This document shows positions 37,148 through 41,027 of a DNA stretch of 64,000 nucleotides, in pieces. The stretch is from the NCBI RefSeq assembly GCF_025465275.1, contig NZ_JAODNK010000025.1:1-64000 (forward strand). Reading direction: 5' to 3'. Numbering within the stretch: position 1 is the stretch's first letter; each line of letters starts with the position of its first letter. Below the pieces are notes generated by a model, which ran no database searches, had not been told where the DNA came from, and saw nothing but the letters and a program-made list of their open reading frames with translations. The translations under genes were made by a program, and so were the position numbers. Source of the stretch: Nocardia sp. Lineage in GTDB: Bacteria > Actinomycetota > Actinomycetes > Mycobacteriales > Mycobacteriaceae.

Positions 37148-39049
37148 GTGGACGACGAGCAGAATGTGCTGACAGCTGTCTGGCCCGAGGTGATCGCCGA
37201 ACTCGCGAGCGGCTCGGCCGACGGCGAGATCCAGCCGGTCAGCAAGGCGCACAAAGCATGGCTCGGCATCATCGAACCGATCACCTTCGCACAGGGATTC
37301 GCCCTGCTCTCGGTACCCGGAACCATGGCGCAGGAGGTGGTGGAACGCGATCTGCGCGAGCCCATTCTGCGGTCCCTGGCCCGCCGTGGACTCCAGGTGG
37401 AGGGCCTCGGTGTCCGGATCAGGGCACAGCAGAATTCCCCGGTCGACCGGTCGCCGAACGCACCCCGCCATGCCCGCATGACCTCCCGCCCGGAACGCCC
37501 GCGCGAGCCCGATCGGGCGCAGCTGGGCTACCAGCCCGCACCCCCCGCGCAGCCGCCGGCCGAGCGTCCACAGCAGCACTACCAGGAGCGGCCCGAGTAT
37601 TCACAGCCGCGCTACGCACCCGCGCAGGACTACCCCTCGGAGTACACCGAGCGCGATGCTTATCCACCTGTGGAATTCGGACAGCCACAGATGGCCGAAC
37701 AGTTGCCGGCACCGCAGCCGGAGCCGCAGCAGCCTCCTCGCCGGCGCGAGAACCACCGGCCACCGGCCATGCCGCCCGGGCAGGAATCGCTGTTCTCGCC
37801 GGAGCCCACCCCGCAATTCCAGGAACCACAGCCCACTCCGCAGTTCCAGGAGCAGCAGCAGTTCCAGGAACCGCAGCCCGAGCCCATGCCGGCGCAGCCC
37901 ACCCGCCGGCCGGTGGACGAGGACCGGGATCGGGACGACGAGCCGGTGGTCAATGCTCGCAACTCGTGGCCGACGTATTTCAACAAGTCGCCCGAGCGGG
38001 AGGCGCCGCAGCCGTCCTCGGCCAACAGCCTGAACGCCAAGTACACCTTCGAGACCTTCGTCATCGGCGCCTCGAACCGGTTCGCGCATGCGGCCGCGGT
38101 CGCCATCGCGGAGGCTCCGGCCCGCGCTTACAACCCGCTGTTCGTTTGGGGCGCTTCAGGTTTGGGCAAAACGCACCTGCTGCACGCGGCCGGTCACTAT
38201 GCCCAGCGGCTGTTCCCCGGCATGCGGGTGAAGTACGTATCCACCGAGGAATTCACCAACGACTTCATCAACTCGCTGCGCGACGACCGGAAGGTGGCGT
38301 TCAAGCGCCGCTACCGGGAGACCGACATCCTGCTGGTGGACGACATCCAGTTCATCGAGGGTAAGGAAGGTATCCAGGAGGAGTTCTTCCACACCTTCAA
38401 CACCCTGCACAACGCCAACAAGCAAATCGTGGTGTCCTCGGACCGGCCGCCCAAGCAGCTGGCCACCCTGGAGGAGCGGCTGCGCACCCGCTTCGAATGG
38501 GGCCTCATCACCGATGTGCAGCCGCCCGAGCTGGAGACGCGGATCGCGATTCTGCGTAAGAAGGCCCGGATGGATCGCCTGGATGTGCCGCACGACGTCA
38601 TGGAGCTCATCGCCACGCGGGTGGAGCGCAATATCCGCGAGCTGGAGGGTGCGCTCATCCGGGTGACGGCGTTCGCCTCGCTCAACGGGCAGCCGCTGGA
38701 CCTGTCGCTGGCCGAGGTGGTGCTGCGGGATCTCATGCCCGACGCCGCCACCATGGAGATCACGGCGTCCACGATCATGGCCGTGACCGCGGAGTACTTC
38801 AACACCACGCTCGAGGAACTGACCGGTCCCGGTAAGGCCCGGCCGCTGGCGCAGGCCCGGCAGATCGCCATGTACCTGTGCCGCGAACTGACCGACCTAT
38901 CCCTGCCCAAGATCGGCCAGGCCTTCGGCCGTGACCACACGACGGTCATGTACGCCGACAAGAAGGTGCGCAAGGAGATGACCGAGCGCCGGCGGGTGTA
39001 CGACCAGGTTCAGGAACTCACAGCCCGAATTAAACAGCGCTCGCGCTGA
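37148..39049 (+). CDS. dnaA: chromosomal replication initiator DnaA
   Basis: [52 protein letters not shown]. Confidence 0.98.
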
Positions 39050-39059
39050 TCCACAACTA

Positions 39060-39099
39060 ACAGACCCCCACGTCTCCTGACGTGGGGGTCTGCTGTTTT
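39060..39099 (+). terminator. dnaA terminator
   Basis: CAGACCCCCACG-tctcctga-CGTGGGGGTCTG followed by ctgtttt. Confidence 0.85.
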
Positions 39100-39857
39100 C
39101 GGGGCTGTGGATTCCTCGAGTAAACGTTGTGGAATCCTCGAGGAAACTCCTAGTTGTCCACCGGTTCGCTCACAGGGCTCTACTAACAGGGGTGCACAAC
39201 TAGTAGTGCACAGTTCCCACAGGTTGATTCATCCTCGAGGTCTGACCTGCGCGGATGGGAGTTGTGCCCTGTGGATTCCTCGAGGAGTCCCATGGGAGTC
39301 CTCGAGGAAACTGGCAGTTGTCCACCGTTTTGCCCCCATGTGCGCAGGTGCCCCGGAAACCGTGGAGCAACTCGAGGATGACTCGAGGATGAATGTGGAA
39401 ACTGGCAGTGACTCCACAGCCATCGGCTGTTCATCCTCGAGACACCCTCGAGACATCCACACGCCGCCACACCCTCCGAGCTGCAGAAAGGGGGGAAGTC
39501 CACAGATTCCACACCGCCTACTACTACTTCATTTCTCTCTAATTAGAATTCTCTTTTAAAACAGGTGTGTGGAAAGTCGGGTGGGGAGCGAACAGATCGC
39601 TGGGATCGCTCCCCGGCTTCATGAACAAGCTAGAGACGCCTGGACGACAAGGGCCGAGCCGCGAACCGGGAAGTCCCGAGTCCTGAGCCGCGACGGGCTG
39701 TCCTACGAAATCGGACAGTCGGACCCTCCGACCCGGCGCGCGCAGATCGCGGGTACGGTTTGATGTCGGCCCCCTGTGCGAGACTGCATGGGTTCCAGGG
39801 GGAAGTAGCCCCTGAAGAATTCAGTTCACTTACTGCTGGGAGAGGACAGACCGGGCG
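39100..39857. other. oriC: oriC (dnaA-dnaN intergenic region)
   Basis: Multiple DnaA boxes (TTGTCCACC 39154-39162 and 39318-39326, TTCCACACC 39507-39515, others), AT-rich block 39527-39563, nine CTCGAG palindromes. Confidence 0.93.
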
Positions 39858-41027
39858 ATGGAGCTTGCAAGCATGAAGTTTCGAGTCGCTCGCGAGGACT
39901 TCGCCGAATCCGTAGCTTGGGTGGCCCGCAGCCTGCCGTCGCGGCCTCCGGTGCCTGTGCTCGGCGGTGTGCTCCTCGTGGCCGATGAAGATGGTCTTAC
40001 CGTGTCCGGCTTCGACTACGAGGTCTCCGCGCAGATGCGGGTGGCCGCCGAGGTCGCCGGACCCGGGCAGGTGCTGGTCTCGGGCCGCCTCCTGGCCGAT
40101 ATCACCAAATCACTGCCCAACAAGCCGGTCGATGTTTCGGTGGACGGCACGCGGGTGCTGATCGCCTGTGGCAGTGCGAAGTTCTCGCTGCCGACCATGC
40201 CGGTCGAGGATTATCCCCAGCTTCCCGAACTTCCTCCCCAGACCGGTGAGCTCTCCGTGGATCTGTTCTCCGAGGCTGTCGGTCAGGTCGCCGTGGCCGC
40301 GGGTCGCGATGACACGCTGCCCATGCTCACCGGCATCCGGGTCGAGATCGAGGGCCCGAAGGTGGTGCTCGCCGCGACCGACCGTTTCCGGCTGGCCGTA
40401 CGTGAGCTGGAGTGGAATCCGGGTCGTGCGGATGTGGAGACCGCGGTACTGGTCCCGGCTCGCACCCTGTCCGAGGCGGGTAAGACGCTCGGCTCCTCCG
40501 ACAAGCCGGTGCAGCTGGCGTTCGGTACCGGTTCCGACGGCCTGCTGGGCATTGTGAACGGCGGTCGCCGAACCACCACGCGCCTGCTCGATGCCGAATT
40601 CCCCAAGTTCCGGCAATTGCTCCCCAAGGAGCACACCTCCATCGCGACGCTCTCGGTGAGCCAGCTGGTCGAGGCCATCAAGCGTGTGGCCCTGGTGGCC
40701 GAGCGCGGCGCCCAGGTGCGAATGGAGTTCTCCGAGGAGGGCCTGCTGCTCTCCGCCGGCGGTGACGATGCCGGTCGCGCCGAGGAGTGGCTGGAGGCCG
40801 ACTTCCGCGGTGAATCGCTGACCATCGCCTTCAACCCGGGTTACCTGGTGGACGGTCTGGGCGCGCTGCGCACCGATAAGGTCACCTTCGGTTTCACCAC
40901 CCCCAGCCGTCCGGCCGTATTCGTGCCGACGCCGGAAGAGGATCCGGCGCAGCTGGATTCGGGTGCCTTCGCGGCGCTGGCCAGTAATTACATCTACCTG
41001 TTGATGCCGGTGCGGTTGCCGGGCTGA
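39858..41027 (+). CDS. dnaN: DNA polymerase III beta sliding clamp
   Basis: [18 protein letters not shown]-terminal [10 protein letters not shown]. Confidence 0.98.

Follow-up and report, generated by a model that had tools for sequence, protein, structure and literature searches.

The CTCGAG array at the replication origin of Nocardia, a probable target cluster of a C5-cytosine methyltransferase

The dnaA–dnaN gap and its CTCGAG array

The window (i.e., the whole 64-kb stretch of Nocardia DNA that was analysed) carries dnaA and dnaN, separated by a gap of 808 bp (dnaA stop at 39049, dnaN start at 39858). All nine CTCGAG palindromes of the array, numbered here as sites 1 to 9, lie within this gap, along with several DnaA boxes and a probable unwinding element. 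The features of the region are the following:

37148–39049, forward strand: dnaA, 633 aa (TIGR00362, 482.6 bits, above the cut-off)
39066–39093, forward strand: terminator-like hairpin CCCCCACGTC...GACGTGGGGG, 3' of dnaA, read from the sequence
39106–39114, reverse strand: DnaA-like box GAATCCACA, its centre 7.5 bp 5' of site 1
39115–39120: CTCGAG site 1, directly 3' of a TGTGGATTC box; homologous site in 81 of 87 Nocardia
39137–39142: CTCGAG site 2, CCTCGAGG; kept in 84 of 87 Nocardia
39154–39162, forward strand: DnaA box TTGTCCACC, 18.5 bp (centre to centre) 3' of site 2; a conserved block in the Nocardia alignment
39234–39239: CTCGAG site 3, CCTCGAGG; in some Nocardia only, 45 bp from the next site
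39270–39278, reverse strand: DnaA-like box GAATCCACA, its centre 7.5 bp 5' of site 4
39279–39284: CTCGAG site 4, CCTCGAGG, directly 3' of a TGTGGATTC box; kept in 86 of 87 Nocardia
39301–39306: CTCGAG site 5, CCTCGAGG; kept in 87 of 87 Nocardia
39318–39326, forward strand: DnaA box TTGTCCACC, 18.5 bp 3' of site 5; from the box search and the Nocardia alignment
39371–39376: CTCGAG site 6, CTCGAGGA; kept in 86 of 87 Nocardia
39382–39387: CTCGAG site 7, CTCGAGGA, 11 bp from site 6; kept in 77 of 87 Nocardia
39436–39441: CTCGAG site 8; kept in 81 of 87 Nocardia
39447–39452: CTCGAG site 9, 11 bp from site 8 and immediately 5' of the DnaA-like box ACATCCACA
39453–39461, forward strand: DnaA-like box ACATCCACA, last of an a–b–c tandem that begins at sites 8 and 9
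39496–39504, forward strand: weak DnaA box AAGTCCACA, adjoining the unwinding region
39518–39563, forward strand: probable unwinding element, CTACTACTACTT followed by AT-rich DNA, recognised from its sequence and conserved across genera
39858–41027, forward strand: dnaN (TIGR00663, 335.7 bits)

The nine sites are those that an earlier note on this DNA had pointed out, and their successive spacings are as it described (22, 97, 45, 22, 70, 11, 54 and 11 bp), six of the eight being at most 1 bp off a multiple of 11. Four of the sites are indeed the full palindrome CCTCGAGG, while the count of forward-strand TCCTCGAG motifs has to be lowered from seven to six, the site at 39447 reading CCCTCGAG. 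The same note had judged this density to be far above chance, and Markov models of the gap agree, with nine CTCGAG observed for 0.4 (order 1) to 0.7 (order 2) expected, i.e., more than ten times the expectation; across 2000 simulations of the gap, the maximum was 4–5 and nine was never reached. Over any stretch of 340 bp, no other 6-mer of the whole window is as clustered as CTCGAG. Since the window-wide count shows no enrichment (34 CTCGAG for 29.4 expected), it is the clustering at the origin that is unusual, and both the simulations and the window counts rule out chance or base composition as the cause of the array.

At the dnaN-proximal end of the boxes, the CTACTACTACTT sequence (39518–39529 and homologous positions), lying by the AT-rich stretch, is kept throughout the family and resembles the DnaA-trio, an element described in Bacillus.

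Conservation, restriction to the origin and register with DnaA boxes

A genome-wide scan, which the earlier note had itself named as a check, finds CTCGAG nowhere else as dense as at the origin. Across the 9.67-Mb genome, TCCTCGAG occurs 850 times (both strands), and the 11-bp pair CTCGAG-N5-CTCGAG is found twice, both times in this origin; looser CTCGAG pairs outside oriC are near the level of the reversed control and mostly codon-spaced. Among 301 genomes of the family, triple CTCGAG at a pitch of 11–12 bp are located at the oriC of array-bearing genera, with few isolated exceptions. The near-control level of the non-oriC pairs and the essentially oriC-only triples led us to reject a transcription-factor regulon with arrays elsewhere. 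Clustering of the target palindrome in oriC and not elsewhere, as observed here, is one of the traits of a methylation-marked origin of the Dam/GATC kind.

Three viral contigs bear 11-bp triples devoid of any origin-like context, and a viral or plasmid iteron was rejected on this ground. At the end of one viral contig (L289, 9744–10205), dense CTCGAG at a pitch of 11–12 bp are embedded in T-rich DNA, which by its look is an unrelated tandem repeat. As for TCCTCGAGGA, a literature search returned no papers with a visible link to the subject.

The array is conserved in close relatives, a comparison that had likewise been proposed beforehand. From a sample of 100 Nocardia genomes, 87 have a complete dnaA–dnaN gap in the fetched stretch, and all 87 harbour 4–12 CTCGAG in oriC, while ten further Nocardia, mostly without the dnaA end in the fetched stretch, have 2–4 in the 1000 bp before dnaN. 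When the 87 gaps are aligned, seven homologous CTCGAG sites prove to be retained in 77–87 of the genomes, the CTCGAG columns average 1.89 bits vs. 1.10 for the rest of oriC, and gains and losses of sites keep to 11- or 22-bp steps. Lost sites were also inspected for deamination decay, which might have revealed the methylated cytosine, but CTCAAG turned up just twice at homologous positions in the 87 Nocardia, which does not suffice.

Beyond Nocardia, arrays are present in the genera g10, g15, g20, g23 (Rhodococcus) and g27, as well as in one of the five g22 genomes, most other genera having 0–1 CTCGAG at oriC and g6 having 0–4. The number and pitch of the sites differ between genera. Rhodococcus-type genera have arrays at a pitch of 11–12 bp, and Rhodococcus features a second (distal) array near dnaA, with a pitch of about 12 bp (11–14), in which CTCGAG alone is kept and the flanks are variable; these distal arrays are devoid of DnaA-box features and of the TCC half, and lie far from DnaA boxes. 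One g10 genome (G256, L229) has nine extra CTCGAG at a pitch of 13–15 bp in the first ~120 bp of its array, vs. 11–12 bp elsewhere.

The CTCGAG sites were said to interleave with DnaA boxes and to form a helically phased array of their own. The interleaving is real, with the boxes at 39154–39162 and 39318–39326 lying among the sites, and so is the 11-bp register, for which sharing with the DnaA boxes is a better description than an independent array. Using boxes with at most one mismatch, and measuring from each box, in its own orientation, to the CTCGAG centres, we found distances that peak at −7.5, −18.5, −29.5 and −40.5 bp, which become −11, −22, −33 and −44 bp when the sites are treated as boxes of the variant sequence NNRTCC-TCG. 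The best fit over seven genera has a period of 11, an R of 0.56 and a phase of −0.1 bp, a result that 20,000 random shifts per genus never equalled. This phase agrees with the prediction for CTCGAG in a DnaA-box slot, homologous regions being non-independent samples. Read by eye, the tandem slots a, b and c by the unwinding region are occupied by CTCGAG or by DnaA-box-like sequence depending on the genus, the last slot before the unwinding region is box-like nearly always, and at the homologous slots the origins of Gordonia and Mycobacterium carry DnaA boxes in tandem, spaced by 11 bp. A change of DnaA specificity was considered and rejected: the HTH recognition region of DnaA is almost the same in genera with and without an array, and its recognition helix has no array-linked change.

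The methyltransferase and its restriction-like neighbour

Clusters of CTCGAG at this place are not new. Blow et al. 2016 (PMC4752239, Fig 6), who screened 230 methylomes for clustered motifs of orphan methyltransferases, describe in their main text CTCGAG clusters at the dnaA terminus of Nocardiaceae, between dnaA and the polymerase gene, report that Nocardia has an orphan methyltransferase with CTCGAG as its recognition sequence, with which the clusters correlate, and draw the comparison with Dam. The opinion that this is not an established oriC element is therefore overturned, the cluster having been on record since 2016, and the core finding is not ours. That main text contains nothing on Rhodococcus, spacing, Vsr or SeqA, and the later literature, as far as an incomplete coverage of articles and no supplements goes, adds nothing on CTCGAG origin clusters. 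What appears to be new are the DnaA register, the Vsr partner, the 11/12-bp pitch and a connection with the loss of a restriction-like gene, to which we add a candidate enzyme in this genome, with a probable origin in a restriction system.

This candidate is a C5-cytosine methyltransferase of the PF00145 family (G000:C82:3189–4376, reverse strand; TIGR00675 above the cut-off), followed 53 bp downstream by a gene for a Vsr repair endonuclease. Belonging to the C5-cytosine family, it is not an N6-adenine methyltransferase like Dam itself. Profile searches of this genome for the methyltransferase families PF02384, PF01555 and PF07669 returned no match, which rules out these adenine or N4-cytosine enzymes, and a second PF00145 gene (C72:77801–79015) is not distributed among genomes like the C82 enzyme.

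Among the genomes whose oriC counts are known, 51 have an orthologue of the C82 enzyme (72–100% identity), and 37 of these have at least four sites, while the 31 genomes devoid of an orthologue all have 0–1 sites (Fisher p = 5.5e-12 for enzyme vs. array, computed without phylogenetic correction, so that the relatedness of the genera makes independence overstated). The association extends to the interior of a genus: of the five genomes of g22, G177 alone carries the enzyme and it alone carries an array (10 sites), the four others lacking both. The one exception to this co-occurrence is G113, which has an array but in which no orthologue was found, its assembly being 66% complete. Conversely, 14 genomes combine the enzyme with fewer than four sites, and the enzyme is thus not sufficient for an array. 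The C82 enzyme is probably the methyltransferase acting on the CTCGAG array; we further infer that Blow et al. described this same enzyme and that CTCGAG is its methylation target in this strain.

Two genomes deserve a comment of their own. In G177, the dnaA–dnaN gap (L204) reaches 1232 bp, about twice that of its relatives, alongside the array and the methyltransferase; a horizontal gain of the latter is possible, because it is not near tyrA, unlike in many other genomes. In G109 (L443, 4775–5890), a methyltransferase that is 43–46% identical is likewise followed by Vsr, in a genus without a CTCGAG array, and its specificity may differ.

In 17 genomes (g16, g20, g26, g28, g31, most g6 and one g23; loci L435, L436, L439–L442, L446, L450, L451, L457, L458, L465, L467 and L474–L477), a gene of ~280 aa adjoins the methyltransferase, sitting between it and Vsr wherever both were seen. 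Its product contains VDVAKGRKRLDVK...VSIKTYSF and has no match in Pfam, NCBIfam or PADLOC. As its distant homologues directly follow N-6 methylases on plasmids, the gene likely encodes a restriction endonuclease, and the protein is a candidate for a new family of such enzymes. No restriction endonuclease gene lies beside the C82 methyltransferase at its locus in this genome, which hence does not have the arrangement of a Type II restriction-modification system (i.e., an endonuclease adjoining the methyltransferase), and most other array-bearing genomes are likewise without a restriction-like gene beside the methyltransferase.

Genomes with the restriction-like gene have 0–9 sites (median 1), vs. 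0–17 (median 9) for those without it. In the tree of the methyltransferase, the branching mirrors the genera approximately, with the carriers of the restriction-like gene scattered over it, a pattern consistent with several losses of this gene. Arrays can predate the loss, since the gene coexists with 4–9 sites in g20 and in one g23 genome (G178), and loss alone does not yield an array, since two g6 genomes (G234 and G291; L478 and L438) have neither the gene at the locus nor any CTCGAG at oriC. With a restriction-like gene retained in some relatives, mostly those with few sites, the system looks domesticated, and the methyltransferase probably derives from a restriction system.

Interpretation and comparison with known systems

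The array is real, conserved, functional-looking and already recorded as a methyltransferase-linked origin cluster. We regard it as likely that it serves as the origin target cluster of the C5-cytosine methyltransferase and its Vsr partner, and that its methylation state gates the assembly of the DnaA oligomer. Briefly, the conserved methyltransferase, partnered by Vsr, would methylate the CTCGAG palindromes in oriC; replication would turn all sites hemimethylated together, hence marking the origin as “just replicated”, and remethylation would restore it. An effect of methylation on initiation is what we infer here, and the DnaA oligomer would be its most likely target, because the sites follow the DnaA boxes in their 11-bp register and fall where related origins have DnaA boxes. 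Gating might be direct, through 5-methylcytosine at the TCCTCGAG positions in DnaA slots, or might pass through a protein reading hemimethylated DNA. The direct route cannot cover every site, given that the distal Rhodococcus arrays have no DnaA-box features, and for the same reason a reader or a cooperative binder is favoured at these arrays.

The earlier note had suggested a cooperative array for an origin-binding factor, possibly methylation-sensitive; the functional look and the methylation-sensitive option are retained, but a dedicated protein is not needed to account for the conservation. In its strict form, i.e., CTCGAG as the operator of a separate cooperative origin-binding protein with one-turn spacing, methylation being secondary, we find this explanation rather unlikely. 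It would suit the strict CTCGAG core, free flanks and maintained 11–14 bp pitch of the distal Rhodococcus arrays, as well as the one-turn tandem spacing, which is typical for oligomerising dimers. However, an operator independent of methylation would not predict that enzyme and array co-occur, even inside one genus, and the genome has no further arrays that would suggest an autoregulated regulator.

The register raises another reading, in which CTCGAG are low-affinity DnaA boxes (TTGTCC-TCG for TTGTCC-ACA) and methylation is irrelevant. In favour of such boxes, the sites occupy positions in the DnaA-box register and interchange with box-like sequence at homologous slots, and E. coli provides a precedent, with cooperative weak-site DnaA arrays and an atypical palindromic AGATCT (PMC4285127). 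Yet the sites do not qualify as matches to TTRTCCACA (1–2 mismatches at most), with TCCTCG for TCCACA and free flanks in Rhodococcus, the TCC half is missing from the distal arrays, the DnaA recognition region is nearly identical with or without an array, showing no matching change, and the tie to the methyltransferase is left unexplained, which altogether makes this reading very unlikely in our view. Finally, the variable number and pitch of sites between genera and the 14 genomes with the enzyme and few sites could be taken as signs of a by-product with no role in initiation, whether spread in tolerant intergenic DNA or a relic of the restriction system. This we hold to be extremely improbable, considering the conservation of the CTCGAG columns (1.89 vs. 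1.10 bits) and of seven sites in 77–87 of 87 Nocardia, the gains that hold the 11/22-bp step and the fact that restriction would select for avoidance rather than clustering.

Within the preferred reading of a methylation-gated origin, a more specific scenario may be offered tentatively, as a possibility that we would not yet bet on: in Nocardia and Rhodococcus, a restriction-modification system would have been domesticated into an origin licensing mark, the endonuclease being lost and the methyltransferase and Vsr kept, each CTCGAG would have taken the place of one DnaA box within the 11-bp register, and cytosine methylation would directly control the growth of the DnaA filament. Such a system, if real, would amount to an independently evolved equivalent of Dam/SeqA based on cytosine methylation, and the genomes with and without the endonuclease-like gene would form a natural series from defence system to housekeeping regulator. 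The guard against double origin firing is poorly understood in the Mycobacterium–Nocardia group, SeqA/Dam control belonging to proteobacteria. Were the origins of Nocardia and Rhodococcus marked by methylation, these genera would have a once-per-cycle mechanism open to testing, its enzyme and sites already named; if confirmed, it would also rank among the few cases of 5-methylcytosine in bacterial replication control.

Among known systems, E. coli Dcm-Vsr shares with the present one a C5-cytosine methyltransferase adjoined by Vsr; the Dcm sites (CCWGG) are not known to form origin arrays. Dam, GATC and SeqA at the E. coli oriC offer the likeness of a short oriC-enriched palindrome, a solitary methyltransferase (apparently so here, no restriction gene lying beside the C82 enzyme) and the logic of a hemimethylated origin, but the enzyme here is of the C5-cytosine family (Dam being an N6-adenine methyltransferase), the site has 6 bp and there is a Vsr partner; we know of no SeqA-like reader for the CTCGAG system. 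The nearest precedents in E. coli are SeqA sequestration (PMC13076061) and the arrays of weak DnaA sites (PMC4285127). The latter, as low-affinity sites guiding the DnaA oligomer, resemble the CTCGAG array, which differs in that CTCGAG deviates at box positions 7 and 9 and that the core alone is kept in the distal arrays. The clusters of TTAA in Arthrobacter and of CATG/CTAG in Haloarchaea, as presented in the main text of Blow et al. 2016 (PMC4752239), likewise combine an origin target cluster with a methyltransferase, which is an orphan there, though with different motifs, enzymes and lineages. Closest of all are the Nocardiaceae clusters of the same main text, which agree with ours in motif, place (dnaA terminus), taxon and correlation with a methyltransferase, and to which the present analysis adds the Vsr partner, the restriction-like gene, the 11/12-bp pitch and the DnaA register.
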